From Zingiber officinale (taxonomy: Eukaryota; Streptophyta; Magnoliopsida; Zingiberales; Zingiberaceae): DNA of 64,000 nt. The notes under the pieces were generated by a model that saw only the letters and a program-made list of their open reading frames with translations, made no database searches and had not been told where the DNA came from. This document shows, piece after piece, positions 1,682 through 53,421 of the stretch. The DNA is taken from positions 38,291,511-38,355,510 of the forward strand of contig NC_056000.1 of assembly GCF_018446385.1 (NCBI RefSeq). Reading direction: 5' to 3'. Positions within the stretch are counted from its first letter, which is position 1. Every line of letters starts with the position of its first letter. A program made the translations under genes and the position numbers.

Positions 1682-1789
1682 AAATAGAGAACAATTGTAA
1701 TAATTTATTGTAGTAATGATTTACTGTTTGTGTAACTAAAATTTATGGTGAATAAAATTATTGTAAATTAAATTTATAAGAAAGGATAC

Positions 1790-3900: not shown

Positions 3901-4363
3901 CATGTTCCCTGTGAAGTTCTAACTGGGAAGATGGTATATTTGGTGTCAAAACGTATTTATACCCCATTTCTAATAAGGTATTGCTCCGTGGCAGTTGGCA
4001 CGGAACCTAGTGACGTGCTCTGAAAACCTCCGTTGGTCCGAGCCTATTTGATTTTTTAAACAATCTCAACTGTTACCATGATTTCAGTTTTGAGAAGATA
4101 GAAATGGTGCGCATTACAACTTATATACATTGTCTCTTTCCACTGATAAGCACCAGCATTGCATTTTGTATTTTGTGATTTATATTTCTGACTAATCACT
4201 ATGCAATATTATTAATATTCCAGTGACCGTTTCTAATTTTCTCATACACTACATACCACCGTATTATACAACAAAGACTACATACAAAGATATTAAAAGT
4301 CCTACACTACGTAATAATTGCATTTACAATCTATACAAGTTTTTGCCTTACAAGACTGGATAT

Positions 4364-7300: not shown

Positions 7301-7573
7301 TGATCAGCACTATGTGTCGGTCATGTAAAATAACACCGCCTCCATGCGTTCCTTTCTTCGTGGATGGTTGAAAAAAACTTTTAAGTGACCGAGGACACTG
7401 TTCCAATGCAGTTTCTGTCCAACATCAACTGAACCCTATACTTTATAAAAATAAAAAAATTTAAATCATACTAGTTCAGCTTCTCAATATCACAGAGTTT
7501 GTAAAATGATAACCTTTACAGCTAATTGATGTGGCGAGGATGATGATTTGCCCGATCGACGTCTTTGCGCCAT
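4364..7573 (-). CDS. Ulp1-type C48 cysteine protease carried by MULE A (10 exons, 748 aa)
   Basis: Ten exons join in phase: 7573-7514, 7397-7187, 6937-6480, 6399-6268, 6194-5562, 5480-5395, 5275-5086, 5003-4797, 4710-4589, 4511-4364 (2247 nt with stop). All introns have GT/AG ends; the exon 1/2 junction is the least certain. The protein starts MAQRRRSGKSSSS. Exons 2-4 form the conserved N-terminal domain found in plant Ulp1 transposon proteins (motifs LLLGIADRG, LDRFNWVESI, AVWFLEHVPIQ). Exon 5 is a charged, partly coiled-coil linker with a basic RSRRGRDRSR stretch. Exons 7-10 form the protease domain with TFNQYNSL, HFHLLVVD and VDCGFFVMQYI. The His and Cys are present, with Gln upstream of the Cys; the Asp position is Asn. 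The family deconjugates SUMO-like modifiers, but substrate and activity here are unknown. No frame-breaking change is seen, unlike the facing paralogue. Confidence 0.85.
7030..7112. repeat. Palindrome cluster GGGCCTGATA...TATCAGGCCC in intron 2 of the Ulp1 gene
   Basis: Two to three back-to-back copies of TATCAGGCCCACGTTGGGCCTGATA lie between the exon ends at 7187 and 6937. It is the same palindrome family as in the 1790-3720 tandem array and in MULE B at 54768, 55130, 55830 and 56205. It would form a strong hairpin in the pre-mRNA of either strand. Confidence 0.85.
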
Positions 7574-7859
7574 TATGATACTAGCTGATTAATGTAATGT
7601 AAACCCTAGAATCCTTCACTGATGGCTCACGAACACTCTTGATTTTTAATTAAACTGAAATGCTAGCTAGATGGCGCTTGAGAAAAACTCGAACTGATGG
7701 CTCACGAACACTAAACTAGGGTTTCACAAGACCGAGCTGCACTCGCATGTCACGAAGGAGGGAAGTACCCTAATGATCGTTTTTTTTTTAATATCTAAGT
7801 TTTTTAAAAATGTGGTTCGGATGCCTGGGAATTGATGACTGATCAGAGGTGTTGGTTGG

Positions 7860-7985
7860 CGGTAGGGTTATATTCGGTAATATACATCACTTACCTGCGC
7901 CTTTTGGTAAATACAAAACCGTAATGCGCTTTTTGGTAAATACATTAACTGTAGTACGCCTTTTGGTAAATTACCGTTAAAAGAG
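7860..7985 (-). repeat. Terminal region of MULE A with ACCAAAARGCG sub-repeats and candidate 9-bp TSD
   Basis: Reading inward from 7976 on the minus strand, TTTACCAAAAGGCG occurs at the tip and again twice at roughly 40-bp spacing (one copy AAGCG). MULE B carries the same terminal run plus an internal ATCAAAAGGCG copy. Subterminal repeats are often transposase binding sites in Mutator-type elements, which is the likely role here. TTAAAAGAG at 7977-7985 is the predicted target duplication. Confidence 0.7.
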
Positions 7986-8054
7986 CAATATTTATTACCC
8001 TCGATGCTACGTATGGGGAACAAGTCGGTGCACTCTCCCCAGCGACATTACTAA

Positions 8055-9607
8055 GGGCAACTGTAATGCTTGTTAATAGGAGGTGTTATAACACTCCTTG
8101 ATGTTAACACCCATTGTGGAGGGATGTTATAACACCCTCCCACTTTGAACGCGTTCAAAGTACAATTCTTGTACAATGGGTGGGCCAGCCAACCCTTGGC
8201 TGACCCACTCATAGTGTTTTTTTTTTAATTTTTTAATAATTGAATAAAATCCTAAAATTAAAAATAAATAAATAAAATGAGTAACTAATAAATAATAAAG
8301 ATATTTTTAATAATATTATTATTTATTTAAATTTTATTTATTTAATATGATATAATTTTAAATGCACGGTGGGACCCATGACTAATAAGTATTAAATGTG
8401 GATGAGAGAGATGTTATAATGTATTGAACGCGTTCAAAGTACAATTTTTGTACAGTAGGTGGGCCAGCCAACCCTTGGTTGGCCCACTCATAGTGCTTTT
8501 TTTTTAATTTTTAATAATTGAATAAAATCCTAAAATTAAAAATAAATAAATAAAATGGGTAACTAATAAATAATAAAGATATTTTTAATAATATTATTAT
8601 TCATTTAAATTTTATTTATTTAATATGATATAATTTTAAATACACGGTGGGACTCATGAATAATAAGTATTAAATGTGGATGAGAGAGATGTTATAATGT
8701 ACGCGTTCAAAGTACAATTCTTGTACAGTGGGTGGGTCAGCCAACCCTTGGCTGGCCCACTCATAGTGTTTTTTTTTAAATTTTTTAATAATTGAATAAA
8801 ATTCTAAAATTAAAAATAAATAAATAAAATGGGTAACTAATAAATAATAAAGATATTTTTAATAATATTAATATTCATTTAAATTTTATTTATTTAATAT
8901 AATATAATTTTAAATGCACGGTGGGACCCATGAATAATAAGTATTAAATGTGGATGAGAGAGAGATGTTATAATGTATTGAACGCGTTCAAAGTACAATT
9001 CTTGTACAGTAGGTGGGCCAGCCAACCCTTGGCTGGCCCACTCATAGTGTTTTTTTTTTAAATTTTTAATAATTGAATAAAATCCTAAAATTAAAAATAA
9101 ATAAATAAAATGGGTAACTAATAAATAATAAAGATTTTTTTAATAATATTATTATTCATTTAAATTTTATTTATTTAATATGATATAATTTTAAATGCAT
9201 GGTGGGACCCATGATAATAAGTATTAAATGTGGATGACAGAGAGATGTTATAATGTATCGAACGCGTTCAAAGTACAATTCTTGTACAGTGGGTGGGTCA
9301 GCCAACCCTTGGCTGGCCCACTCATAGTGTTTTTTTTAATTTTTTAATAATTGAATAAAATCCTAAAATTAAAAATAAATAAATAAAATGGGTAACTAAT
9401 AAATAATAAAGATTTTTTTAATAATATTATTATTCATTTAAATTTTATTTATTTAATATGATATAATTTTAAATGCACGGTGGAACCAATGAATAATAAG
9501 TATTAAATGTGGATGAGAGAGAGATGTTATAATGACTATGTGACAATGAACTACATACTTTTTGATGAGGTGACGGATATTATAACACGAATACATTACG
9601 GGTGCTC
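8055..9607. mobile_element. Non-autonomous PIF/Harbinger-type element (TSD TAA)
   Basis: The left end GGGCAACTGTAATG and the reverse complement of the right end GAGCACCCGTAATG match at 11 of 14 positions and resemble the GGGCACCCGTAATG-type termini of PIF/Harbinger elements. TAA flanks both ends (8052-8054 and 9608-9610), the expected 3-bp duplication. No transposase gene is present; nearly the whole interior is a tandem array. The length (1553 bp) is large for a Tourist-like MITE because of that array. Confidence 0.72.
8145..9540. repeat. Five tandem copies of an about 280-bp unit
   Basis: AACGCGTTCAAAGTACAA begins units near 8148, 8427, 8701, 8981 and 9262. Each unit carries a near-perfect palindrome (GTGGGCCAGCC-AACCCTT-GGCTGGCCCAC), a poly-T run, a very AT-rich 150-bp middle and the closing GATGAGAGAGATGTTATAATG. 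Copies are highly similar and differ by small indels in the T tract, so the array expanded recently inside the Harbinger element. Confidence 0.92.
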
Positions 9608-28567: not shown

Positions 28568-31500
28568 ATCACCAGCTTGGCTGCACTGAATGGAGCTATC
28601 AGCTTGTTCTCCACTCGGCCTTATTATTATCGGAGAGGCATATTGCGTCTGATCGACCCAATTGGCCAGGTGGCGGATTGGGTAACTTGGTTTTTAGCTA
28701 TGGACTACTGTAAGTTGTGGAGGGTAACTGTTCAGTTGGTCCAATCGGCCATTTACGTTCGATCATCTCTAGAGGACTGCTCGGCCACCCAGGGGCGGAG
28801 AATTATATGGGCAAAGCTGGGCACAAGCCCAGCAGAAATTTAAAAATTTTAAGCCTAGGTATATATATTTAAAGCCCAGTTGTAATTATTAAATCAAATT
28901 CATTCATTTTTAAAGCTCAATTCAAGGCCTAGGTTATTAATAGCTGATTATTAAATCATTATTAGATAAAGCATTAAAGTCACCTACTAAAGTCACTAAA
29001 CCCTAAATTATTCACAAAGAAAGTGGCGGCTTGCAAAAACAGTGGCGGCTTACAAAAAAGTGGCGGCTTGGAAAAGTTTGAAGAAAATTCTCTTAGGTTT
29101 GTATTTCGATTTTATTTATATATAATAGTATAATCAATTACATAGTATATAGATTACGTTTTTTTAATATTATGTAAATATATTAAGATTTTTGTTTTCT
29201 AGGGTTGAAATTGAACATTGGGGATTTTAAAATTTCTAAAATTTAGGATTGAAAATGTAAACATTGATATCTAGTTTATATTTGTTCAAAGAAGATAAAT
29301 TTGTGAAAATTTTTAGGGTTGAAATTTGAAAATGTTGTGTACGGTTGAAATTTTTATCTTCATATTTGAAAATGTAGATAAATTTGTTTCATTTGTTAGC
29401 TTCCCACATGTTCGAAGTGTATTTTTTAAAAAATTATTTTTGAAAAATGATTTTACTTGTTATTTTATATTTATAATTGTGTTGTTCGAAGTGTATTTTT
29501 TAAAAAATTATTTTTGAAAAATGATTTTACTTGTTATTTTATATTTATAATTGTGCTGATTCTTTTTAATTGAACTTATATTATAGGTTAAAAAAAGTAA
29601 AGAATTTGCAATTTGAATTGAATTAGCTTAAATAATTTAGACTTACAAAATTTATTTTGATTACATGTGAAATATTACAATGAAGAATCAAAAAAACTTT
29701 GATTTCTTCAGAAAGAAGAATGATGAATCAACAAGTGATTTAAATGGGCCAAATAACATATTTCCTTGTATTTCAGAACCAGCATCTACTAAAAGACCAA
29801 GACTTGAAAATGAGACTCTTAATGAACCGCTTTCGAATTCGAGTAACAATTTGCAATATGTTTCTGATCCTGGAATTCGCATCCCAATTTTACAACATCC
29901 CATTGAACTTCAAGATGAGGTAAGAAGAACATATATTGATAAAGGGTCAATTCAACCTATATATTATTATCCTTTTATTGAATGTGAAGGTCAAAAGCGT
30001 ATATTCCAATCTTCTTGGTTTCAAAAATATCCTTGGCTTGAATTTTCTATTGAGAAACAAAGTGCATTTTGTTTCCCTTGCTATGTTTTTGACACTAACT
30101 CAGCACAATTTGACACATTCACTGTCACGGGATTTAAAAATTGGAAAAGAGTTAATTGTAAAAATTGTCCATTCAAGAGACATGAAGGAGATGGGAATTC
30201 AAGACATAGCTTTGCCATGCGAAAATGGGGAGATTTGAAAAATCTTGATCAGCATATTGATAGAAGATTAGAAAAACAATCTTCTAAGCAAATTGAGCAA
30301 AATCGGTTGCTCTTAAAGGTGTCCATAGAAAGTGTGAAGTTTCTTGCTATGCAAGGTTGTGCTTTTAGGGTCATGATGAATCAATTGCCTCTAAAAACCG
30401 TGGAAATTATTTGGAATTGGTAGCTTTGTTGGGAAGAATGAATCCAGAAATTGGTAGTACTTTGGAAAAAGCATCTAAAAATGCAAAGTACACATCACCA
30501 GAAATTCAAAGAGAGATTTTGAAAATTATTGCTGATATTGTGAGGGATAAAATTCGTGCAGAAATTGGAGAAGCCAAGTTTTGTATCCTCGTTGATGAAG
30601 CAATTGATGAGTCAAGTAAAGAACAAATGGCTATCATTTTAAGATATGTTGATCGGGATGGGTTCATTAGAGAACGATTTTTTGAAGTTGTTCACGTTGA
30701 AAATACAAGTGCATTAACTTTGAAAAAAGAGATATGCAATGTATTCAACCAATACAATCTGTTAACTGAAAATCTAAGGGGGCAAGGCTATGATGGCGCA
30801 AGTAATATGCGTGGGGAATGGAATGGACTCCAGACTTTATTTCTTAAAGATTCTCCACATGCTTATTATATTCATTGTTTTGCTCATAGACTACAACTTG
30901 CTTTAGTTGCAGTTTCTAAAGAAGTGCATGATGTTTGGCATTTCTTTTCAACATTAACTTCGGCTATTAATTTTGTTGGTTCATCTGCTAAACGTCAGTT
31001 TCAATTGAAATCTATCCAAAAAGCTGAAATTAATGATTTGATAAAATTGGGAGAAATTGACATTGGTATTGGATCTAATCAAGATTGTTCTTTGGTACGA
31101 GCTGGAGCTACTCGTTGGAGTTCACATTTCAACTCTGTTAGGAGATTCATTAGTTTGTTTGGTTCAGTGAGTACACTTTTTCAAGATCTTGTCGACAAAG
31201 GTCCCAATAGTAACATTCGAGGAGAGGCTAAAGGTTTGTACTTGGATATAAAATCATTTGACTTTGTATTTGTATTATTTCTAATGCATGAAGTTTTGGG
31301 AATATCAGATAAGTTGTGTCAGACATTACAGAAGAATGACATAGATATTTTGAATGCTATAAATTTGGTTTATACTACTAGACTAAATCTTCAACAGATC
31401 CGAGATGATAGATGGGAAGGATTTCTTTGGAGTGTGTTGAAGTTTTGTGAAAGCAATGATGTTGAGGTGCCAGACTTTGATGATTGCTACACACGAGGTA

Positions 31501-31915
31501 CAAAACGTTCTTGCCAGCAGAAAAACAATATAACAATCCATGATCACTATCATTTTGAAATATTTAATGCAGTAATAGATTTTCAGTTGATGGAATTGAA
31601 TGAAAGATTTCCAGAGGGCACAATAGAACTTCTTACTCTCAGTAATGCTTTGAGTCTCGTTGATGGATTCAAATCATTTTCTCTGTCTGACATTTGTTCT
31701 CTTGTTGATAAATTTTACTACTATGATTTCAATCTAGAAGAAAGAGGAGATTTGGAGAGAGAATTAGATCATTATAAATTTGATATACCGCGTCATGCGC
31801 AGTTTCAGAATCTTAATTCTTTGCATCATTTGTGCCAAACATTGGCCAGAACGACAAAGTCAGTTATCTATCCTTTGATTGATAGGTTGGTTCGATTAGT
31901 TTTGACTCTTCCAGT

Positions 31916-33340
31916 TGTTAGGACCAAAAGTAGCTAGAGGGGGGGGATGAATAGCTCGTCGCGTTCGCTCGGTGCTCGGCGTTGCTTGTTCCTTCAAAGA
32001 TGTGCAGCGGAAAATATAGAAACAAATACAACAACGCTAACACGGTTGGTTTTACTTGGTATCCACCTCACAAGAGGTGACTAATCCAAGGATCCACACC
32101 AACACACACACCCTCCACTAAATAAAACTCTCCTTTATGGTAACTACCAAGGGCGGAGAAGCCCTACAAGACTCAATACAAGAAGAGAGGGAAAGGATAC
32201 AAGAAATACAAGCTTACAATGAGTACAAAACCCTAACCCTAGCTTCTCTTCTTGGCTTTGATCCGCCTCTTGACTTGGAGAGCTTCCAAGATCCTTCAAG
32301 AACTGGCGATCTGAGCTTTGTGAGCGCTGTGGAGGGAGAGAGCTCGAGTGAATCGGTGAAGAGATACCGCAGCCATCGCGCCTGCAGCTATAAACGACGC
32401 TAACGGCCGGATCCCGATCGATTCGAATGTTCCCAATCGATCGGGAGGCTTTGGATCGATCCACGGATCGATCCGGCGCTTAACTAGCTGCCGATCGATC
32501 CACGGATCGATCCGACGCTTATCGCGAGGGCCCCCAATCGATCCATCGATCGATTGGGACCTCTGATCGATCCACGGATCGATCCGAGGCTCTCCATCAG
32601 ACAGTCGGATCGATCCACCGATCGATCAGAGCCGGATCGATCCATCGATCGATCCAAAGACTTGGTTTTGTCCAAAACCAAGTCCTAAACCTCCCAAACC
32701 AACATCCGGTCAACCTTGACTGTTGGTATGTCATGCCTAGCATCTAGTCACCCTTGACCGCTAGGACTCCCTTACCAAGTGTCCGGTCAATCCCTTTGAC
32801 CCACTTGGACTTTTCTCTGTGCAAGCATCCGGTCAATCCTTTGACCTACTTGGACTTTTCTTTCATGCCAAGTATCCACAATCCTTTGACCTACTTGGAC
32901 TTCCCAAAGACTGATGTCCGATCATCCTTGATCCATCTGGATTTTCCCTTGCCTGGCTTCACTCACCAGGGCTTTCACCTAGCTTCACTCACTAGGGTTT
33001 TCCATCTGCCTAGCTTCACTCACTAGGACTTTCACCTAGCTTCACTCACTAGGGTTTTCACTCTGCCTAGCTTCACTCACTAGGACTTTCACCTGGCTTC
33101 ACTCACCAGGATTTCCATCTGCCTAGCTTCACTCACTAGGACTTCCTTCTGCCTGGCTTCACTCACCAGGACTTCCATCTGCCTAACATCCCAGTTAGGA
33201 CTTCCCAGTCAAGTATCCAGTCAACCTTGACCTACTTGACTCTTCTTCAATCAATATCTTATTGTCAAACATCTAAACCCAAACCAAGACTCAGCTTGGT
33301 TACCCAGGTCAACCTTGACCTGAGGGATATTGCACCAACA
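31916..33340 (-). repeat. 3' LTR of gag-only element 1 (1425 bp)
   Basis: Plus-strand limits TGTTAGGACC and TTGCACCAACA (minus strand TGTTGGTGCAA...GGTCCTAACA). It contains, from U3: nested TTGACC/GGTCAA hairpins, eight CCTRG/CYAGG hairpins (32950-33180), a GATCGATCC hairpin cluster (32410-32665) and a poly-C stretch near its 3' end. Confidence 0.93.
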
Positions 33341-33354
33341 ATCTCCCCCTTTTT
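33341..33354 (-). other. Polypurine tract of gag-only element 1
   Basis: On the minus strand AAAAGGGGGAGAT directly precedes the LTR start TGTTGG; this is the normal plus-strand primer site. Confidence 0.8.
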
Positions 33355-35736
33355 GATGTTTGATAATACCACAATAACACTTACAATCCCATATGTAAGT
33401 TAGGCTAATCCCATAGCCTCCTTCTTCATGCCACTAGGTAATGAAAGCATAAATTAAGCTCTTCATTCTCCCCCTAAGAGGGCAAACTCCCTCTAGGTAA
33501 TGAAAGCCTAACTTATTCCCTTTCATGAGTCCTTTCATTCTCCCCCTATGACCTTCCCATAGGTAATGAAGGACTAAGCTTAACCATACATTCTCCCCCT
33601 ATTGGCACACATCAACCCATCGTTGGACACACATCAACCTATGCTCCAATTCTGGGCACACTTCAACAAATCCATTTGTTGAAGACTCTCCCCCGAAGAG
33701 TTGCTCATCGTTGTTCACAACATCACTCGTTGTGATCAACACGATAATGAAGGTCCCATACCCTTCATTTATCCTTAACTTCTCCTCAATGTAGACAAAT
33801 ACCCAACCTTGAGCATTATCTACCACTTGAGTGTCCACTTGAAATAATGAGGATATCCATCCCCATTTCTCCCCATTTCAAGTTTAAATGCTCAACTTTG
33901 AGCAAGTTCACAATGAAGGTTAACCACCTTCCAAGGTTCATGAAAATAATTTTCATGTCTTTAAAGAGTCTCCCCCTAAAGACATGGTGGTAACTTCGTC
34001 ATTGCACCAACAATGACTTGGAATCCCTAAACCTTTAGGAAACCCAAATTTAGAAGTTTTGAGGTTCAAATATTCAAAATTTGAAACAACCTCAACCTAA
34101 ACTTCTACTTAGTCTTCGTTAACCAATCCATCCTTGTTTTCAACATGAAAACACCCTTTGTATGTATACAAATGTATTTAAGGAGCTTGGAATGGTTACC
34201 TAGACTAAAGGAGGTTCAAAGATGCTGAAATCAGGCTTCCCATCAAAATCAGAATTGGATCGATTGAGTTGGGTTCCAATCGATTGAACCTTTCTGAATC
34301 GATCCACGGATCGATTCAGACTCTGAATCGATCGGCTGATCGATCCAGCGAGCTTCTGCTCGCGGGAATTGCCGTTTGAATCGATCCATGGATCGATTGA
34401 GGCACTCCAATCGATCCATGGATCGATCGTAGCTCGAAGTTGCTGAAATTCCATTTCATCAATTCGAAACCCTAGAAAATTCTACAAAAATCCAAAAATC
34501 ATGAAATTTCGTGTAGACATTATTTAGGGTATAATTTATCATGGAAAAATAGTTTTATATGAAAATACATTATATTTTCAAAGATTGACACAAACTTGAA
34601 AACTTGTAAAAACTTTAGTGTTTTTCTTCAAGTTTGTGTCTAACTATTCAATGGTGATTACTATCAAAAGATAGCCTTCACCAAGGTTTTCCAAAAACAT
34701 TTTAAAACCATTTTCAAAACCAATATCCCATCACATTCCTTGGGCTTAATGCACATGACTTGTACATTAGCTTTCCCAATGATGGGAAAACACATAACTA
34801 TGTGTTTTGATGAACCTAAAACTCAAAAGAATGCACTAAATCAACATCTTGAGTTTTGTTCATCATCCTAACATCTCACTTGTATATAATATGCACTAAA
34901 ACACATACAAGTCACCTTATAGTTTTTGTGAGATGTAGATTTTGGTTTTACCATAATCTAGGGATCATGCATATTTATCTAGGCATTTTAGAAATATTAG
35001 ACATCCACCTAGGATGTCACTTGTCAATAAGTGTCGTTAGATGCCATTTGTCCTTAATTACAAGGAATTAAACTTAATGCATGATTATGTTATGGCATAC
35101 ATCAAAAGAAAATAATTTTCAAAAGAAAATATCCTATTGCTACATGATGTATGAATGTCATGACATGGTATTTTTAAATTTTTCATAATAAAACATGAAT
35201 GCAAAAATAGACATGATGTCATGGCATATGATGGGCAAACAATCATGACAAGGTTTAGCATAAATAAAATATACCTAGATTAACTATCTAAGTATCCTTA
35301 AAGTCTTAGCTAAACTTACAACTTAAACCTAGATTGCCCTAAAGTGCTTCAAGAAAATGCCAAAGCCTAAGTTTGCATTTCTTATTCCCTTGATTAATTT
35401 ATGCCAATTAAAATTAAGCATATTCCTCAAATGTTGGCATATTCCATTTTTCCTCAAGAGTAACACTTTTAAATTTAAGGCCCGGATTGCCTTAAATTGC
35501 CTAAGAACATACCAAAAACCCAACTTGATAGTTCTTATGAATTTTCCAATATGTGCCATTTAAGATTAAAATCAATTCTTCCACCATTAGGCACATTTTA
35601 CTCTTTCAAGGAGTAATCAATAATTTCATTTCATTTTCAAAGGTTAACTAAAACCTTGAAAATGCTCCTTGAATGTCAATTTCCTCAAAGTTGGGTTAAC
35701 TACCCTTCTAATCGGAGTTGACACTCTCTAACCCAT

Positions 35737-37527
35737 CTATGGGGTAGAGAAGATGCTCCTAGGAACCCAACACCTATTGGTGCTCCTTGGATGCTCTAGG
35801 TACTCATTAGGGATAACTTCCCTAGATACCTTCCTAGCGACCTTGTTGGGCTTCTTAGAAGCCTTGGTCACATTTTCTAGGTCAACTCTAGGGATAACCT
35901 TTCTTGTGACCTTGTTTGTGACTTTCTTAGACTTCTTAGAAGTCTTAGTCACATTTATTGCAAAAATACTCTTAGGGATGACTTCCCTATTATTTTTGGC
36001 TTGACCACTAGACCTAGGGTTTGTTCCATAACTATATGGAACTCTATGGTAAGAGGGCACATCCTTCTTAGCCTTTGGTTTGTATCCCAAACCTCTATGG
36101 CCATTGGATGGCTTTTGTACCCCTAAACCTAGGTTATGCTCATTTTGCCCTAATAGGATATTTTCCATCCTTTTTAGGGTCTTTTCCATTTTATCAAGCC
36201 TTGATCTCAAGACTTGATTTTCTATCACTAAGTCCTTAGTTTTTGGTTTTTCATTTGATCCATGAGCATTTTTATTCTTGGGCTTGTATCTATTATCCTT
36301 AGTGTTCTTGCCTAGGTTTTTACCCACATTTCTAGCCTTAGGGATAGTAGTTTTGGCATGTAGGGCCACATGCTTTTCCTTAAAGCCCTCATGTTTCCTA
36401 TTCTTATGGTAAATCGCATTAAAATGATAAAAATTTGACCTAGCATGCTTTTTACCATTTTGCAAGGGAATAGGCTCAATGAAAGTTACCTTCCTTTTTA
36501 CCTTGGAGGCTCCCCCTTGACTAGTGCCTCCTTGAGCCTTGACCATCTTCTTCCCCTTGGGGCATTGACTTCGGTAATGCCCTTTTAGTTGACACAAGAA
36601 ACACACAATGTGCTCCTTGCTCTTCTTTGTCCAGGGGGTGGTCACCTTGGGCTTCTCCTTGCCCTTTTGTGCCACTTGGCCCTTCTTCTTGGCCAAGTTG
36701 GGACACTTGCTCTTATAGTGCCCATGTTCCCTACACTCAAAACATATTATATGATTTTTATTATTAATTGAAATATTTATACCTTTGCTTGTAGGGGTGG
36801 CATCTTTTTCTTTGGATCCGGAGGTAGAAGCTTCCTCTTGATCGGACCTTGATTCTCGTCCATTTGATTTTTCTTGACTTGTGGAGGTAGAAGCTTCTTC
36901 CTCCTCTTCTTCTCTTGACCCGGATGTAGAAGCTTCTTCTTCTTCTTGATCCGGTGTCACCAAGGATTGCTCCCCCTCAATCCTAGAGGTGGAGGCTTCA
37001 TCATCTTGAATATGAAACAAGGAGTATGCTCCCTCCTTGTTCCCTTCGTTGCATTCCCTTGAGGATGAAGCTTCTTGGATTTCCTCTTCTTCGGAGGTTG
37101 AGTATCTCTCAACCTCGGAGTCCTCCTCTTGGTCTTGCTCCAAAGAGTCACCCTCTCTGGATTCTTCATGATCTTGTACAGTGGAGGGGATCTCTTCATG
37201 AAGCTTAGCCAATTTGCTCCAAAGTTCCTTTGCATCTTCAACTTCTCCAATTTTGCAAAGAATGGTGCTTGGCAATACATTGACCAAAAGCTTGGTCACT
37301 TTGTCATTTGTCTCGCACCTTTGGACTTGTTCCGGGCTCCATTTGCTTTTCTTTAGAACTTTGCCCTTTGAATTTTTTGGAGCCTTGAAGCCTTCCATTA
37401 GAGCAAACCATTGCTCTATCTCCATCATAAGAAAATTTTCGATTCTTGATTTCCAAGAATCGAAACTCGTAGAAGTGTATGGTGGAGCCACCCTTGTGTC
37501 AAATCCAAGCCCATCTTGGAATTGCAT
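35737..37527 (-). CDS. Retrotransposon Gag (copia type) with two CCHC knuckles, element 1
   Basis: An open frame of about 596 aa from the first ATG (MQFQDGLGFDTR); the frame extends 19 codons further up without an ATG. The N-terminal part (SFDSWKSRIENFLM, later LLVNVLPSTILCKIGEVEDAKELWSKL) is the copia-type gag fold. The middle is a Ser/Glu-rich acidic repeat region. Two zinc knuckles follow, CFECREHGHYKSKCP and CFLCQLKGHYRSQCP (C-x2-C-x4-H-x4-C). The tail is Lys-rich and basic, with VTKTSKKSKKVTNKV repeats. It would package element RNA; no pol follows. Confidence 0.9.
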   Translation of the reverse strand: MQFQDGLGFDTRVAPPYTSTSFDSWKSRIENFLMMEIEQWFALMEGFKAPKNSKGKVLKKSKWSPEQVQRCETNDKVTKLLVNVLPSTILCKIGEVEDAKELWSKLAKLHEEIPSTVQDHEESREGDSLEQDQEEDSEVERYSTSEEEEIQEASSSRECNEGNKEGAYSLFHIQDDEASTSRIEGEQSLVTPDQEEEEASTSGSREEEEEEASTSTSQEKSNGRESRSDQEEASTSGSKEKDATPTSKGINISINNKNHIICFECREHGHYKSKCPNLAKKKGQVAQKGKEKPKVTTPWTKKSKEHIVCFLCQLKGHYRSQCPKGKKMVKAQGGTSQGGASKVKRKVTFIEPIPLQNGKKHARSNFYHFNAIYHKNRKHEGFKEKHVALHAKTTIPKARNVGKNLGKNTKDNRYKPKNKNAHGSNEKPKTKDLVIENQVLRSRLDKMEKTLKRMENILLGQNEHNLGLGVQKPSNGHRGLGYKPKAKKDVPSYHRVPYSYGTNPRSSGQAKNNREVIPKSIFAINVTKTSKKSKKVTNKVTRKVIPRVDLENVTKASKKPNKVARKVSREVIPNEYLEHPRSTNRCWVPRSIFSTP

Positions 37528-37645
37528 CTTGAAGTTGAGCTTGATAAAGTCTTGAGCTTGAAGAATTTGCTCCAACTTCTTCACCCTCTAGCTTTTCTTG
37601 TTATACTTGACCCTTCCGGCGATGATTCCGGTGAAGAGCAACCAA

Positions 37646-37657
37646 GCTCTGATACCA
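37646..37657 (-). other. Primer-binding site (initiator tRNA-Met), element 1
   Basis: The minus strand reads TGGTATCAGAGC 3 nt after the LTR end at 37660, complementary to the 3' end of plant initiator Met tRNA, as usual for copia elements. Confidence 0.92.
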
Positions 37658-37659
37658 CT

Positions 37660-39089
37660 TGTTAGGACCAAAAGTAGCTAGAGGGGGGGGGGGGATGAAT
37701 AGCTCATCGCGTTCGCTCGGTGCTCGGCGTTGCTTGTTCCTTCAAAGATGTGCAGCGGAAAATATAGAAACAAATACAACAACGCTAACACGGTTGGTTT
37801 TACTTGGTATCCACCTCACAAGAGGTGACTAATCCAAGGATCCACACCAACACACACACCCTCCACTAAATAAAACTCTCCTTTATGGTAACTACCAAGG
37901 GCGGAGAAGCCCTACAAGACTCAATACAAGAAGAGAGGGAAAGGATACAAGAAATACAAGCTTACAATGAGTACAAAACCCTAACCCTAGCTTCTCTTCT
38001 TGGCTTTGATCCGCCTCTTGACTTGGAGAGCTTCCAAGATCCTTCAAGAACTGGCGATCTGAGCTTTGTGAGCGCTGTGGAGGAGTTGGCGAGAGCTCTG
38101 GAGTGAATCGGTGAAGAGATACCGCAGTCATCGAACGCCTGCAGCTATAAACGACGCCAACGGTCGGATCCCGATCGATTCGAATGTTCCCAATCGATCG
38201 GGGAGGCTTTGGATCGATCCACGGATCGATCCAGAGCGCCTCTGTGCTCTGGAAACGCGCCTGGATCGATCCACGGATCGCGCGAAGGAGCGATCCACGA
38301 TCGATCCAGACTCGATCGCTGGGAATCTGGATCGATCCATTGATCGATCCAGAGCCTGGATCGATCCACCGATCGATCCAGAGCCTGGATCAATCCACCG
38401 ATCGATCCAGCACTTGGTTTTTGTCCAAAACCAAGTCCTAAACCTCCCAAACCAACATCCGGTCAACCTTGACCTGTTGGTATGTCATGCCTAGCATCTA
38501 GTCACTCCCTTGACCTGCTAGGACTCCCTTACCAAGTGTCCGGTCAATCCCTTTGACCCACTTGGACTTTTCTCTGTGCCAAGTATCCGGTCAATCCCTT
38601 GACCTACTTGGACTTTTCTTTCATGCCAAGTATCCATCAATCCTTCGACCTACTTGGACTTCCCAAAGACCGGATGTCCGATCATCCTTGATCCATCTGG
38701 ATTTTCCTGCCCGGCTTCACTCACCGGGGCTTTCACCTAGCTTCACTCACTAGGGTTTTCCATCCGCCTAGCTTCACCACTAGGACTTTCACCTAGCTTC
38801 ACTCACTAGGGTTTTCACCGCCTAGCTTCACCACTAGGACTTTCACCGGCTTCACTCACCGGATTTCCATCCGCCTAGCTTCACTCACTAGGACTTCCTC
38901 CGCCTGGCTTCACTCACAGACTTCCATCCGCCTAACATCCCAGTTAGGACTTCCCAGTCAAGTATCCAGTCAACCTTGACCTACTTGACTCTTCTTCAAT
39001 CAATATCTTATTGTCAAACATCTAAACCCAAACCAAGACTCAGCTTGGTTACCCAGGTCAACCTTGACCTGAGGGATATTGCACCAACA
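37660..39089 (-). repeat. 5' LTR of gag-only element 1 (1430 bp)
   Basis: Same limits as the 3' LTR. It differs from it mostly by 1-3-nt losses in the hairpin arms (for example CCCGG/CCGGG or shortened TTCACCA loops). Followed outside (39090-39339) by a second copy of PPT-side internal sequence instead of the hAT target. Confidence 0.9.
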
Positions 39090-39339
39090 ATCTCCCCCTT
39101 TTTGATGTTTGACAATACCACAATAACACTTACAATCCCATATGTAAGTTAGGCTAATCCCATAGCCTCCTTCTTCATGCCACTAGGTAATGAAAGCATA
39201 AATTAAGCTCTTCATTCTCCCCCTAAGAGGGCAAACTCCCTCTAGGTAATGAAAGCCTAACTTATTCCCTTTCATGAGTCCTTTCATTCTCCCCCTATGA
39301 CCTTCCCATAGGTAATGAAGGACTAAACTTAACCATACA
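39090..39339 (-). other. Extra copy of internal 3' region outside the 5' LTR
   Basis: Nearly identical to 33341-33590 of the same element, including the normal PPT next to the LTR. Its outer end is TGTATGG followed at once by the TSD copy CCAGT. See the first finding for the mechanism proposed. Confidence 0.9.
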
Positions 39340-39662
39340 CCAGTTTCTACAGCAACTACAGAACGAGCCTTTTCAGGGATGAAACTCATTAAGACGCCAC
39401 TTCGTAATAAAATGGAAAATGACCTTATGGCCAATACCATGGTTGTTTATATAGAGAGGGATATTGCTCCAGGTATTGATACAGAATTTATCATAAACAA
39501 GTTTGATGTATTGAAAAATCGCAAAATACAGCTTAAATAAGAATTCGGTATGTTTATTTAGTTTCTTTTATTTTTATTATGTGAAGTTCAAATTAATATG
39601 TAAAAACATTTTGCCCAGTGCTCACCAGGAAAAATATTGCTGGCTACGCCCCTGCGGCCACC

Positions 39663-45908: not shown

Positions 45909-47560
45909 TGTTGGTGCAATATCCCTCAGGTCAAGGTTGACCTGGGTAACCAAGCTGAGTCTTGATTTGGGTTTAGATGTTTGACAATAAGATATTGATT
46001 GAAGAAGAGTCAAGTAGGTCAAGGTTGACTGGATACTTGACTGGGAAGTCCTAACTGGGATGTTAGGCAAAATGAAAGACCTAGTGAGTGAAGCTAGGCA
46101 GTATGAAAGTCCCGTGAGTGAAGCCGGGAGGAAAGTCCCGTGAGTGAAGCCAGGCAGGAAGTCCCGGTGAGTGAAGCCAGGTATGGAAGTCCCGTGAGTG
46201 AAGCCAGTAGAAGGAAGTCCTAGTGAGTGAAGCTAGGATGGAAATGGTGAGTGAAGCCGGTGAAAGTCCTAGTAAGTGAAGCTAGGCGATGGAAATCGTG
46301 AGTGAAGCCAGTGAAAGTACTAGTGAGTGAAGCTAGGCAGATGGAAATCCCGGTGAGTGAAGCGGTGAAAGTTCTAGTGAGTGAAGCTAGCGATGGAAAA
46401 CCCTAGTGAGTGAAGCTAGGTGAAAGTCCCGTGAGTGAAGCCAGCAAGGGAAAATCCAGATGGATCAAGGATGATTGACATCTGGTGTTGAAGTCCAAGT
46501 AGGTCAAAGGATTGACCGATACTTGGCACAGAGAAAGTCCAAGTAGGTCAAAGGGATTGACCGGATACTTGCACAGAGAAAGTCCAAGTAGGTCAAAGGG
46601 ATTGATCGGATACTTGGCACAGAGAAAGTCCAAGTAGGTCGATCAATGATACTGGCACAGAGAAAAGCCCAAGTGGGTCAAAGGATTGACCGGACACTTG
46701 GTAAGGGAGTCCTAGCAGTCAAGGGAGTGACTAGATGCTAGGCATGACATACCAACAGTCAAGGTTGACCGGATGTTGGTTTAGGAGGTTTGGGACTTGG
46801 TTTGGACAAAAATGCCGGATCGATCGATGGATCGATCCGCCTGTCCAGCGAATCAGAGCCTCGGATCGATCCGTGGATCGATCAGAGGTCCCAATCGATC
46901 GTGGATCGATTGACGCTGCTTCGCGCGATAAGCGCCGGATCGATCCGTGGATCGATCCGTGCGTTTCCCGAGAGCACGGAGGCGATCCGGATCGATCCAA
47001 AGCCTCCCCGATCGATTGGGAACATTCGAATCGATCGGGATCCGACTGTTGGCGTCGTTTATAGCTGCAGGCGTGTGATGGCTGCGGCATCTCTTCTCCG
47101 ATTCACTCCAGATTTCTCGCCAGCTCCTCCACAGCACTCACAAAGCTCAGATCGCCAGTTCTTGAAGGATCTTGGAAGTTTTCCAAGTCAAGAGGCGGAT
47201 CAAAGCCAAGAAGAGAAGCTAGGGTTAGGGTTTATACTCATTGTAAGCTTGTAAGCTTGTATTTCTTGTATCCTTTCCCTCTCTTCTTGTATTGAGTCTT
47301 GTAGGGCTTCTCCACCCTTGGTAGTTACCATAAAGGAGAGTTTTATTTAGTGGAGGGTGTGTGTGTTGGTGTGGATCCTTGGATTAGTCACATCTTGTGA
47401 GGTGGATACCAAGTAAAACCAACCGTGTTAGCGTTGTGTGTTTGTTTCTGTATTTTCCGCTGCATATTCTTGAAGAAACAATCAACGCCGAGCAACGCCA
47501 AGCAACGAGCGAACGCGACGAGCTATTCACCCCCCCCTCTAGCTACTTTTGGTCCTAACA
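45909..47560 (+). repeat. 5' LTR of gag-only element 2 (1652 bp)
   Basis: TGTTGGTGCAATATCC...TTTTGGTCCTAACA. Contains the CCTRG-TGAGTGAAG-CYAGG hairpin array (46075-46450, more degenerate than in element 1), nested GGTCAA/TTGACC hairpins (46490-46780) and the GATCGATCC hairpin cluster (46815-47040). Confidence 0.92.
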
Positions 47561-47562
47561 AG

Positions 47563-47574
47563 TGGTATCAGAGC
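47563..47574 (+). other. Primer-binding site (initiator tRNA-Met), element 2
   Basis: TGGTATCAGAGC, 2 nt after the LTR end. Confidence 0.93.
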
Positions 47575-47692
47575 GAGGCCGCTCTTCACCGGAATCATCG
47601 CCGGAAGGGTCAAGCATAACAAGAAAAGCTAGAGGGTGAAGAAGTTGGAGAAAATTCTTCAAGTTCAAGATTTTATCAAGCTCAACTTCAAG

Positions 47693-49471
47693 ATGCAATT
47701 CCAAGATGGACTTGGATTTGACACAAGGGTGGCTCCACCATATTCATCTACAAGCTTCGATTCTTGGAAATCAAGAATCGAAAATTTTCTTATGATGGAG
47801 ATAGAGCAATGGTTTGCTCTCATGGAAGGTTTTGAAGCTCCCACAAATTCCAAGGGCAAAGTACTCAAAAGGAGCAAGTGGAGCCAAGAGCAAGTCCAAA
47901 GGTGCGAGGCCAATGACAAAGTGACCAAGCTTTTGGTCAATTTATTGTCAAGCACCATCCTTTGCAAAATTGGAGAATTTGAAGATGCAAAGGAACTATG
48001 GAGCAAATTGGCCAAGCTTCATGAAGAGATCCCCTCCACTGTACAAGAGCAAGAAGTATCCAGAGAGGGTGACTCTTTGGAGCAAGACCAAGAGGAGGAC
48101 TCCGAGGTTGAGAGATGCTCAACCTCCGAAGAAGAAGTTCAAGAAGAAGCTTCATCTTCAAGGGAATGCAACGAAGGGAACAAGGAGGGAGCATACTCCT
48201 TGTTTCATATTCAAGATGATGAAGCCTCCACCTCTAGGATTGAGGGGGAGCAATCCTTGGTGACACCGGATCAAGAAGAAGGAGAAGCTTCTACATCCGG
48301 GTCAAGAGATGAAGAGGAGGAAGAAGCTTCTACCTCCACAAGTCAAGAAAAATCAAATGGAGGAGAATCAAGGTCCTATCAAAAGGAAGTTTCTACCTCT
48401 GGATCCAAAGGGAAAGATGCCACCCCTACAAGCAAAGGTATAAATATTTCAATTAAAAATAAAAATCATATTATATGCTTTGAGTGTAGGGAACATAGGC
48501 ACTACAAGAGCAAGTGCCCTAAATTGGCCAAGAAGAAGGGCCAAGTGGCACAAAAGGGCAAGGCGAAGCCCAAGGAGATCATCCCCAACACAAAGAAGAG
48601 CAAGAAGCATATTATATGCTTCTCTTGCAATCAAAAGGGGCATTACCGAAGTCAATGCCCCAAGGGGAAGAAGGTGGTCAAGGCTCAAGGAGGCACTAGG
48701 CAAGGGGGAGCCTCCAAGGTAAAGAAGAAGGTAACATTTATTGAGCCTACCCCTTTACATTATGGTAAAAAGCATGATAGTTCTAACTTTTATCATTTTA
48801 ATGCAATTTACCATAAGAATAGAAAGCATGAGGGCTTTAAAGAAAAACATGTGGCCCTACATGCCAAAACTACCCAACCTAAGGTTAGCAAGGTAGATAG
48901 ACACTTGGGCAATAACTCTAAAGATTTTAGATACAAGCCCAAGAACAAAAATGCTCATGGGTCAAATACTAAGGACTTAGTGAGAGAAAATCAAGTCTTG
49001 AGGTCAAGACTTGATAAAATGGAAAAGACCCTAAAAAGGATGGAAAATATCCTATTAGGGCAAAATGAGCATAACCTAGGTTTAGGGGTACAAAAGTCAT
49101 CCAATGGCCATAGAGGTTTGGGATACAAACCAAAGGTTAAGAAGGATGTGCCCTCTTACCATAGTGTTCCATATAGTTATGGAACAAACCCTAGGTCTAG
49201 TGGTCAAGCTAAAAATACTAGGGAAGTCATCCCTAAGAGTATTTTTGCAATAAATGTGACTAAGACTTCTAAGAAGTCTAAGAAAGTCACCAACAAGGTC
49301 ACAAGGGAGGTTATCCCTAGAGTTGACCTAGAAAATGTGACCAAGGCTTCTAAGATGCCCAACAAGGTCACTAGGAAGGTATCTAGGGAGGTTATCCCTA
49401 GTGAATACCTAGAGCATCCAAGGAGCACCAATAGGTTTTGGGTTCCTAGGAGCATCTTCTCTACCCCATAG
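47693..49471 (+). CDS. Retrotransposon Gag (copia type) with two zinc knuckles, element 2
   Basis: Open frame of about 592 aa from the first ATG (MQFQDGLGFDTR). Same layout as the copy at 35737-37527: gag core (SFDSWKSRIENFLM), acidic Ser/Glu repeats, knuckles CFECREHRHYKSKCP and CFSCNQKGHYRSQCP, Lys-rich tail ending FWVPRSIFSTP. Both copies keep the frame open although their non-coding parts have diverged, which points to selection on Gag until recently. No pol downstream. Confidence 0.9.
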   Translation: MQFQDGLGFDTRVAPPYSSTSFDSWKSRIENFLMMEIEQWFALMEGFEAPTNSKGKVLKRSKWSQEQVQRCEANDKVTKLLVNLLSSTILCKIGEFEDAKELWSKLAKLHEEIPSTVQEQEVSREGDSLEQDQEEDSEVERCSTSEEEVQEEASSSRECNEGNKEGAYSLFHIQDDEASTSRIEGEQSLVTPDQEEGEASTSGSRDEEEEEASTSTSQEKSNGGESRSYQKEVSTSGSKGKDATPTSKGINISIKNKNHIICFECREHRHYKSKCPKLAKKKGQVAQKGKAKPKEIIPNTKKSKKHIICFSCNQKGHYRSQCPKGKKVVKAQGGTRQGGASKVKKKVTFIEPTPLHYGKKHDSSNFYHFNAIYHKNRKHEGFKEKHVALHAKTTQPKVSKVDRHLGNNSKDFRYKPKNKNAHGSNTKDLVRENQVLRSRLDKMEKTLKRMENILLGQNEHNLGLGVQKSSNGHRGLGYKPKVKKDVPSYHSVPYSYGTNPRSSGQAKNTREVIPKSIFAINVTKTSKKSKKVTNKVTREVIPRVDLENVTKASKMPNKVTRKVSREVIPSEYLEHPRSTNRFWVPRSIFSTP

Positions 49472-51850
49472 ATGGGTTAGAAAGTGTCAACTCCGATTTG
49501 AAGGGTAGTTAACCCAACTTTGAGGAAATTGATACTCAAGGAGCATTTTTAAGGTTGTGTTAACCTTTGAAAATGAAATGGAATTATTATTTACTCCTTG
49601 AAAGAGTAAAATGTGCCTAATGGTGGAAGAATTGATTTCAAACTTAAATGGCACATATTGGGAAATTCATAAGAACTATCAAGTTGGGATTTTGGTATGT
49701 TCTTAGACAATTTAAGGCAATCCGGGCCTTAATTCAAAAGTGCTACTCTTGAGGAAAAATAGAATATGCCAACATTTGAGGACATGTTTATTTTCAATTG
49801 GCATACATTAAATCAAGGAAATTAGAAATGCCAAATTTAGGCTTTGGCATTCTCTTGTAGCACTTTAGGGCAATCTAGGTTTAAGTTGTAAGTTTAGCTA
49901 AGACTTTAAGGATACTTAGATAGTTAATCTAGGTATATTTTATTTATGCAAAATCTTTCCATGATTGTTTGCCCATAATATGCCATGACATCATGTCTAG
50001 TTTTGCATTCATGTTTTATTATGAAAAATCCAAAAATACCATGTCATGACATTCATACATCATGTAGCAATAGGATATTTTCTTTTGAAAATTATTTTCT
50101 TTTGATGTATGCCATAACATAATCATGCATTAAGTTTAATTCCTTGTAATTAAGGACAAATGGCATTTAACGACACTTATTGACAAGTGACATCCTAGGT
50201 GGATGTCTAACATTTTTAAAATGCCTAGATAAATATGCATGATCCCTAGATTAGGGCAAAAACCAAAATCTACATCTCACAAAGACTATAAGGTGACTTG
50301 TATGTGTTTTAGTGCATATTATATACAAGTGAGATGTTAGGATGATGAACAAAGCTCAAGATGTTGATTTAGTGCATTCCTTTGAGTTTTAAATTCATCA
50401 AAACACATAGTTATGTGTTTTCCCATCATTGGGAAAGCTAATGTACAAGTCATGTGCATTAAGCCCAAGGAATGTGATGGGATATTGGTTTTGAAAATGT
50501 TTTAAAATGTTTTTGGAAAACCTTGGTGAAGGCTATCTTTTGATAGTAATCACCATTGAATAGTTAGACACAAACTTGAAGAGAAACACTAAAGTTTTTG
50601 CAAGTTTTCAAGTTTGTGTCAATCTTTGAAAATATGAAGTATTTTCATAGAAAACTATTTTTCCGTGATAGTAAACGCCCTAAATAATGTCTACACGAAA
50701 TTTCATAATTTTTGGATTTTGTAGAATTTTCTAGGGTTTCGTTGACCGAAATGGAATTTCAGCAACTATCGAGTCTGATCGATCCATGGATCGATTGAGT
50801 TCTGAATCGATCCATGGATCGATTCAAACGGCAATTCCCGCAGCAGAAGGCGTCTGGATCGATCACCGATCGATTCAGAGTCCGAATCGATCGGTGGATC
50901 GATCAAAGGTTCAATCGATTGGAACCCAACTTCAATCGATCCAAGTTGCTGGTTTTGGCTGGGAAGGCCTGATTTCAGCATCTTTGAACCTATTTGAGTC
51001 TAGGTAACCATTCTAAACCCCTTAAATACATTTGTATACATACAAAGGGTGTTTTCATGTTGAAAACAAGGATGGATTGGTTAACGAAGACTAAGTAGAA
51101 GTTTAGGTTGAGGTTGTTTCAAATTTTGAATATTTGAACCTCAAAACTTCTAAATTTGGGTTTCCTAATGTTTTAGGGATTCCAAGTCATTGTTGGTGCA
51201 ATGACAGAAGTTACCACCATGTCTTTAGGGGGAGGGACTCTTTAAAGACATGAAAATTATTTTTCATGAACCTTGGAAGGTGGTTAACCTTCTGTTGTGA
51301 ACTTGCTCAAGGTTGAGCATTTAAACTTGAAATGGGAAGAAATGGGGAGTGGATATCCTTATTATTTCAAGTGGACACTCAAGTGGTTGAAAATGCTCAA
51401 GGTTGGGTATTTGTCAACATTGAGGGAGAAGTTAAGGATAAATGAAGGTTATGGGACCTTCTTTATCGGGTGATCACAACGAGTGATGTTGTGAACAACG
51501 ATGAGCAACTCTTCAGGGGGAGAGTCTTCAACAAATGGATTTGTTGAAGTGTGCCCAGAATTGGAGCATAGGTTGATGTGTGTCCAACGATGGGTTGATG
51601 TGTGCCAATAGGGGGAGAATGTATGGTTAAGCTTAGTCCTTCATTACCTATGGGAAGGTCATAGGGGGAGAATGAAAGGACTCATGAAAGGGAGTAAGTT
51701 AGACTTTCATTACCTAGAGGGAGTTTGCCCTCTTAGGGGGAGAATGAAGAGCTTAATTTATGCTTTCATTACCTAGTGGCATGAAGAAGGCTATGGATTA
51801 GCCTAACTTACATATGGGATTGAAGTGTTATTGTGGTATTGTCAAACATC
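49472..51850 (+). other. Long 3' non-coding region of gag-only element 2
   Basis: No open frame of note. It has hairpins of the ATCGATCCATGGATCGAT type at 50775-50945 and three roughly 90-bp repeats each with GGGGGAGAATG and TTCATTACCTA (51610-51780). The corresponding region of element 1 (33355-35736) is conserved in order. Confidence 0.8.
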
Positions 51851-51862
51851 AAAAGGGGAGAT
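51851..51862 (+). other. Polypurine tract of gag-only element 2
   Basis: AAAAGGGGAGAT immediately before the LTR start TGTTGG at 51863. Confidence 0.8.
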
Positions 51863-53421
51863 TGTTGGTGCATATCCTCGTGTCAAGGTTGACTGGTAAC
51901 CAAGTCGAGTCTTGGTTTGGGTTTAGATGTTTGACAATAAGATATTGATTGAAGAAGAGTCAAGTAGGTCAAGGTTGATTGGATACTTAATGGAAGTCCT
52001 AACTGGATGTTAGGCAAAATGAAAGACCTAGTGAGTGAAGCTAGGCAGATGAAAGTCCCGTGAGTGAAGTCGGAGAAGAAAAGTCCCGGTGAGTGAAGCC
52101 AGGCAGAAGGAAGTCCGTGAAGCCAGGCAGTAGGAAGTCCTAGTGAGTGAAGCTAGGCGATGGAAATCGGTGAGTGAAGCCGGTGAAAGTCCTAGTAAGT
52201 GAAGCTAGGCGATGGAAATGAGTGAAGCCAGTGAAAGTACTAGTGAGTGAAGCTAGGCGATGGAAATCCTGGTGAGTGAAGCCGGTGAAAGTCCTAGTGA
52301 GTGAAGCTAGATGGAAAACCCTAGTGAGTGAAGCTAGGTGAAAGTCCCGTGAGTGAAGCTGGGCAGGGAAAATCCAGATGGATCAAGGATGATTGGACAT
52401 CCGGTGTTGAAGTCCAAGTAGGTCAAAGGATTGACCGGATACTTGCAAGAGAAAAGTTCAAGTAGGTCAAAGGATGACCGGATACTTGGCACAGAGAAAG
52501 TCCAAGTAGGTCAAAGGGATTGACCATAATTGGCACAGAGAAAAGTCCAAGTGGGTCAAAGGATTGACCGGACACTTGGTAAGGGAGTCCTAGCAGTCAA
52601 GGGAGTGACTAGATGCTAGGCATGACATACCAACAGTCAAGGTTGACCGGATGTTGGTTTAGGAGGTTCGGGACTTGGTTTTGGACAAAATCAGCGCCGG
52701 ATCGATCGGATCGATCCGCACTGCCTCGTCAACAGAGCTCGGATCGATCCGTGATCGATTCAGAGGTCCCAATCGATCGCTGGATCGATTGGGACACCGC
52801 CGCTGCTGAGCAGCGCCGGATCGATCCGGATCGATCCAGCGCTTCCCGAGCACGAGGCCGGATCGATCCGTGGATCGATCCAAAGCCTCCCGATCGATTG
52901 GGAACATTCGAATCGATCGGGATCCGACCGTTGGCGTCGATATAGGCCGCAGGCGCACGATCTCTTCTCCAGATTTCTCGCCAGCTCCTCCACAGCACTC
53001 ATAAAGCTCAGATCGCCAGTTCTTGAAGGATCTTGGAAGTTTTCCAAGTCAAGAGGCGGATCAAAGCCAAGAAGAGAAGCTAGGGTTAGGGTTTATACTC
53101 ATTGTAAGCTTGTAAACTTGTATTTCTTGTATCCTTTCCCTCTCTTCTTGTATTGAGTCTTGTAGGGCTTCTCCGCCCTTGGTAGTTACCATAAAAGAGA
53201 GTTTTATTTAGTGGAGGGTGTGTGTGTTGGTGTGGATCCTTGGATTAGTCACCTCTTGTGAGGTGGATACCAAGTAAAACCAACCGTGTTAGCGTTGTGT
53301 GTTTGTTTCTGTATTTTCCGCTGCATATTCTTGAAGAAACAATCAACGCTGAGCAACGCCAAGCAACGAGCGAACGCGACGAGCTATTCACCCCCCCCTC
53401 TAGCTACTTTTGGTCCTAACA
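51863..53421 (+). repeat. 3' LTR of gag-only element 2 (1559 bp)
   Basis: Same ends and module order as the 5' LTR; about 90 bp shorter through many small losses, mainly in the hairpin array (52020-52370) and the GATCGATCC cluster (52695-52920). Confidence 0.92.

Follow-up and report, generated by a model that had tools for sequence, protein, structure and literature searches.

Insertions of a gag-only Sirevirus-type element in ginger that appear to begin at an upstream polypurine tract

Introduction

In retroviruses and long terminal repeat (LTR) retrotransposons, it is the plus-strand primer that determines where U3 begins at its 5' end. Here we analyse an element of Zingiber officinale whose 5' end lies 250 bp outside its LTR, directly behind an upstream copy of the polypurine tract (PPT). 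The element stands in a 64,000-nucleotide stretch of contig NC_056000.1 (positions 38,291,511 to 38,355,510), hereafter the window, and is, by its sequence features, a gag-only Sirevirus-type member of Ty1/copia.

The signature of Sireviruses, as set out in the relevant section of Bousios et al. 2010 (PMC2829016), comprises a PPT octamer, an AT/TG site, further octamers within 0.5 kb upstream, an inverted repeat bordering the PPT and a C-rich stretch near the LTR end. The octamer position, the AT/TG site, the upstream octamers and the inverted repeat are all seen here, together with a candidate for the C-rich stretch. That section describes the upstream tracts as lacking a correct attachment site: 4 of 63 were followed by AT, none led into TG, and the question of what they do was not settled. 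In the element studied here, by contrast, the nearest three upstream octamers lead into AA/TG, and one of them is associated with integrated ends and target site duplications (TSDs).

Ty1 and human immunodeficiency virus type 1 (HIV-1) likewise have an additional upstream plus-strand origin, a second or central PPT (PMC2829016; PMC5371799). As summarised in those sources, such tracts are found kilobases away within coding sequence and lose the competition for strand transfer, whereas the ginger tract lies 250 bp away and appears to set the end of the insertion. Proviruses with a wrong end are also on record for HIV-1; in the cases outlined in PMC8705849 the host joined the aberrant DNA ends and the junctions were abnormal, whereas here there is an exact TSD for both ends, which points to integrase. 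PPT recycling in Ty3 yields more than one plus strand per molecule, one displacing the other (PMC5371799). This suits one rearranged ginger copy (L045, below), although both Ty3 strands come from the same PPT, unlike those proposed for L045. Our literature search turned up no description of an integrated copy that had started at an upstream PPT; most subscription papers lay outside it, so this is weak evidence of novelty.

Results

Internal DNA lies outside the 5' LTR of an exact insertion

A preliminary description, made from the letters of the window, had placed 250 bp of PPT-proximal internal DNA and then the LTR on the 5' side of the element, a normal LTR end on its 3' side, and an exact 5-bp TSD, CCAGT, around it within a hAT frame. 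Our analysis bears this out. In element orientation the order is ACTGG, the extra 250 bp, 5' LTR, primer binding site (PBS), gag-like frame, a linker with the PPT copies, 3' LTR and ACTGG (Table 1). When the two stretches singled out in that description are aligned, the extra segment matches its internal source at 248 of 250 positions, gap-free. The outer end reads ACTGG/TGTATGGTTAAG, the internal copy AGGGGGAGAA/TGTATGGTTAAG and the true LTR junction AAAAAGGGGGAGAT/TGTTGG. The segment starts at exactly the TG behind an upstream PPT, AGGGGGAG-AA/TGTATGG, and the normal LTR starts behind AGGGGGAG-AT. Joined at the empty site, the flanks form a single open frame (...LTLPVSTATTERAFSGMK...), so the inserted DNA amounts to exactly 7424 bp plus one TSD copy.

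Where did the extra segment come from? Both it and its internal source have the variant AATAAG in the region of the tract at -197. Because this variant is common to the two window copies and absent from all 35 occurrences in 32 other loci, the segment most likely derived from the window element's own template.

The same end recurs at seven further loci

In its internal setting TGTATGG is preceded by A. When the 3.09-Gb genome was searched for exact matches to the 29 bases that start with TGTATGG, with the preceding base not A, eight places on five contigs came up; the A-preceded form occurs 742 times. All eight copies adjoin different flanks at exactly the TGTATGG base (40 bp compared by eye). 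We then compared the five bases past the far end with the five ahead of TGTATGG. These were identical in 8 of 8 copies (CCAGT, TAATT, CCAAC, GTTTC, AAAGC, CGACT, CTAGT and TGCGT) and in 0 of 56 mismatched pairings. The search itself had selected the shared TG, but not the TSD. Six copies, that of the window included, terminate on the far side in the normal U5 sequence, GGTCCTAACA. The end positions, the TSDs and their recurrence are thus matters of direct observation. Chance as the origin of these ends is excluded by the recurrence and by the TSD counts (8/8 against 0/56).

Perhaps the extra segment is what remains of a tandem array (LTR-internal-LTR-internal-LTR) or of a nested element that lost its outer LTR? 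Same-family arrays in which successive units share an LTR do occur (L046, L047 and L050). A deletion, however, would not end at the same base behind the PPT in eight copies out of eight, nor leave exact 5-bp TSDs, and the empty site in the window is exact. We consider this origin extremely unlikely. Equally hard to credit is an insertion in which integrase placed the normal end only and host repair joined the aberrant one, as described for aberrant ends of HIV-1 DNA (PMC8705849). The heavy internal rearrangement of some copies would suit such repair. Host joining nevertheless predicts variable ends and no exact TSD, whereas every copy has a 5-bp TSD, a feature for which the search did not select. 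The exact TSD implies that both ends were joined by integrase. Finally, the family is highly repeated and the junctions are known from the assembly, so that an assembly artefact has to be weighed. That eight loci, spread over five contigs and differing in their flanks, should all have matching TSDs, and that the empty site is in frame, make this next to impossible. On the eight TSDs we rejected deletion of an outer LTR or tandem array, a host-joined end and misassembly alike.

Another reading takes the structure at face value. In formal terms it does not differ from that of an element whose LTRs are 1.68 kb long, and an equally valid description would give the window element two LTRs of ~1.68 kb that start with TGTATGG, the octamer at -250 being its PPT. 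Could these copies then belong to a distinct subfamily that inherits longer LTRs? We disfavour this and think it very unlikely. A transcript starts and stops within R, which would leave the extended end outside the RNA. Of 40 scored matches to the extra segment plus LTR start, 30 were examined; one was the window element itself and 29 were internal copies, in all of which a segment with 99% identity to that of the window runs into an ordinary LTR start preceded by T. The extended copies, for their part, are only about 79-91% identical to the window LTR, so that, judged by LTR identity, they form no tight group.

Ends lie behind the -250 tract and none behind the -125 tract

The three nearest upstream octamers are all followed by AA/TG, the continuation being TGTATGG at -250, TGAAAGG at -197 and TGAAGAG at -125. 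Two more octamers lie within the gag part. A further one, at ~-628 (33970-33977), is followed by AC/TC without TG and offers a natural negative control for end use.

For the -125 tract, the exact pattern gave no non-A-preceded end anywhere in the genome. Its string is present in 29 of the 29 sampled internal copies, and that of the -250 tract in 27 of 29. If both sites were equal, a count of 8 against 0 ends would have a one-sided probability of 2^-8 = 0.004. TGTATGG resembles the natural ends TGTTGG (U3) and TGTTAGG (U5), and TGAAGAG does not. Because of this resemblance to both natural ends, selection by integrase for the end sequence is our preferred reason for the use of -250 over -125; weaker priming at -125 is the alternative that we do not prefer.

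A probable upstream plus-strand start behind the extended ends

We conclude that, very probably, the PPT at -250 started the plus strand, and that strand transfer and insertion of both ends by integrase followed. The RNA primer remaining at the upstream tract AGGGGGAGAA would start the plus strand, and the plus-strand strong-stop DNA would consist of the 250 bp, U3-R-U5 and the PBS. This extended strong-stop DNA would make the second strand transfer and set the left end of the linear DNA, the right end being the normal U5. Integrase would process the TGTATGG end, removing AA, and insert both this end and the normal U5 one, which would produce TG...CA termini and a 5-bp TSD. The result would be a U3 that is 250 bp longer, with the choice of PPT setting the LTR length. 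RNA from an extended copy would start and end in R like canonical RNA, and the extension would be lost in the next cycle; since the two RNAs would be the same, each case is presumably an independent event.

The preliminary description had already proposed a plus strand begun at a PPT-like run and a false TG taken by integrase. The order of the parts, the TG, the position of the octamer and the TSD all fit this proposal. Family members that start alike beside a TSD, which it had suggested seeking in the genome, exist at seven further loci, each with its 5-bp TSD. Its account of the run, which it described as a near-match to the true junction, needs two amendments: the run is no chance look-alike but belongs to the duplicated AGGGGGAG tracts that are typical for Sireviruses (PMC2829016), and it has been used repeatedly.

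Several points weigh against an upstream start. The evidence consists of assembled sequence. Five of the eight copies (L039, L040, L043, L044 and L045) are rearranged or have extra or missing LTR parts. L040 is the weakest case, its far end having been located by scanning for CCAAC and belonging to the LTR of another family. The -125 tract has the octamer and AA/TG without ends, so that an octamer followed by TG is insufficient and a filter must be assumed. Lastly, the counts of ends cover TGs that follow octamers (-250 and -125).

Structures of the individual copies

Apart from the extra segment, the window copy, L041 and L042 have the ordinary LTR-internal-LTR structure. The most informative of the other copies is L045, which reads TSD, extra segment, LTR from position 1 to ~869, AT/TGTTGGTGC with a full LTR, internal part, LTR and TSD. 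Its partial LTR has 7 mismatches in 896 positions with the adjoining LTR, and 56 in 897 with the 3' LTR. This AT separates PPT and LTR and would usually be trimmed away by integrase, so it seems that a strand from the normal PPT was copied through to the end and that copying then went on along a strand from -250. L045 would thus combine strands of two origins in one molecule. Because two bases agree by chance once in 16, we regard L045 as good evidence, though short of conclusive, for simultaneous activity of the two origins.

L039 and L043 have inversions inside a single TSD-bounded insert. L043 (503-3551, oriented) is bounded by two ends of the kind at which plus strands start, an upstream-PPT end and, opposite it, an inverted canonical U3 end. 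The far end of L040 is the U3-type end of another family's LTR; the insert (502-8664) is chimeric and inverted, combining this family with a second one that has a short LTR (~210 bp by eye), and its insertion site appears to lie a single base inward from where an older LTR ends. The shapes of L039, L040 and L043 look like products of template jumping during reverse transcription, by which they would most easily arise. In L044 the 5' LTR is replaced by related sequence. A small unbiased sample of ordinary loci (L048, L049, L050 and L051; n=4) included a canonical element, L051, with the TSD GAAAC, and the tandem array L050.

An alignment of the window element's LTRs over 1399 positions shows 85 differences, in contrast to only 2 in 250 between the extra segment and its source. 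A second alignment of the LTR pair placed 73 of the 85 differences within columns 400-1000, the part with palindromic repeats. For L041, L042 and L045, divergence is 3.3-7.6% between the LTRs and 0.4-0.8% for the extra segment. Recombination between RNAs, or rapid change in CpG-rich repeats, could have produced the divergence of the LTR pairs.

Frequency of extended ends

Across the genome, 1633 LTR starts follow a non-T base, solo and related LTRs included. For C2 below 86 Mb we looked upstream of the 31 A-preceded copies and saw a canonical start (non-T before it) at a distance of 5.3-5.8 kb in 21 cases; two of the 31 lie within the rearranged L039. Scaling 21/31 to the 742 copies gives ~500 canonical ends against 8 extended ones. 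Very roughly, upstream-started insertions would then be 1-2% of the total, which is an estimate and not a count. Both counts omit about a quarter of the ends, namely canonical ones whose TSD has T as its last base and extended ones whose TSD has A there; some two or three of the latter may be hidden among the 742.

Sirevirus features and surroundings of the window element

The internal part contains a gag-like frame in which Pfam matched two CCHC zinc knuckles; one match passes the cut-off and the other falls below it. The other minus-strand frames reach at most 112 amino acids and none is of pol size, in keeping with the gag-only character given in the preliminary description. A homology search with the gag frame returned a single marginal match (62% over 3% of the query).

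The PBS, TGGTATCAGAGC, is what we take to be the initiator methionine transfer RNA type. The LTR/PBS junction, CTAACA-AGTGG, differs in one of its last five bases from the ATTGG with which the conserved Sirevirus junction closes, and the full published 16-mer was not seen there. TG...CA ends with a 5-bp TSD are those of an LTR retrotransposon. The octamer AGGGGGAG stands 10 bp ahead of the 3' LTR with an AT/TG site (AGGGGGAG-AT/TGTTGG), and several identical octamers lie upstream, mostly less than 0.5 kb from the 3' LTR. An inverted repeat has its left arm at the terminal PPT, TCAAACATC ending 14 nt ahead of the LTR with its complement at LTR position 68; just 9 bp of it are exact in the window's 3' copy. 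A C-rich CCCCCCCC, a candidate for the integrase signal of Sireviruses, lies 23 nt before the LTR end, as judged by eye. The LTR has many palindromes of the GGATCGATCC type, which may correspond to the repeated Sirevirus motif with a CGG-CCG core.

The interrupted host gene, with the DUF4371 domain, is presumably of hAT type. This gene (29671-31915) also has a break upstream of the insertion, its domain lying in two frames that overlap at 30369-30423.

Table 1. Coordinates of the element, its parts and its surroundings in the window
Feature	Position	Strand	Details
Whole element	31916-39339	-	7424 bp
TSD, copy at U5 end	31911-31915		CCAGT
TSD, second copy	39340-39344		CCAGT
3' LTR	31916-33340	-	1425 bp, TGTTGGTGCA...GGTCCTAACA
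Terminal PPT	33341-33350	-	AGGGGGAG + AT, adjoining TG of 3' LTR
Internal source of extra segment	33341-33590	-	250 bp
Upstream PPT, -125	33466-33475	-	AGGGGGAG-AA/TGAAGAGC
Upstream PPT, -197	33538-33547	-	AGGGGGAG-AA/TGAAAGGA
Upstream PPT, -250	33591-33600	-	AGGGGGAG-AA/TGTATGG, probable origin here
Gag-like open frame	35737-37587	-	616 codons, stop to stop
PBS	37646-37657	-	TGGTATCAGAGC
5' LTR	37660-39089	-	1430 bp
Extra segment outside 5' LTR	39090-39339	-	250 bp, starting TGTATGGTTAAG at 39339
hAT-like transposase frame, interrupted	30369-31915	+	Pfam DUF4371
C-terminal remainder of DUF4371 frame	39345-39540	+	in-frame with 31915
Second family member, internal control	45909-53421	+	canonical 5' end, TSD TATGC

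Discussion

That Sireviruses have multiple PPTs was known; what our data add is natural evidence of function for one of them. A wider proposal, for which we see as much reason to doubt as to believe, is that the duplicated Sirevirus PPTs are working alternative plus-strand origins, so that the length of the LTR, through U3, is set anew in each cycle. Priming would probably occur at several tracts, with the end preference of integrase selecting among them, and molecules with two origins would give rise to chimeric insertions and to insertions with two U3 ends.

The ends of these natural insertions indicate that a plus strand can begin at an upstream PPT, go through strand transfer and finish as an integrated copy. 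Any genome with many Sirevirus-type elements allows the role of the PPTs to be tested through counts of end positions, and the extended ends supply natural data on the end sequences that integrase accepts. LTR boundaries in such elements are not fixed by sequence alone, which bears on the annotation and the dating of LTRs.

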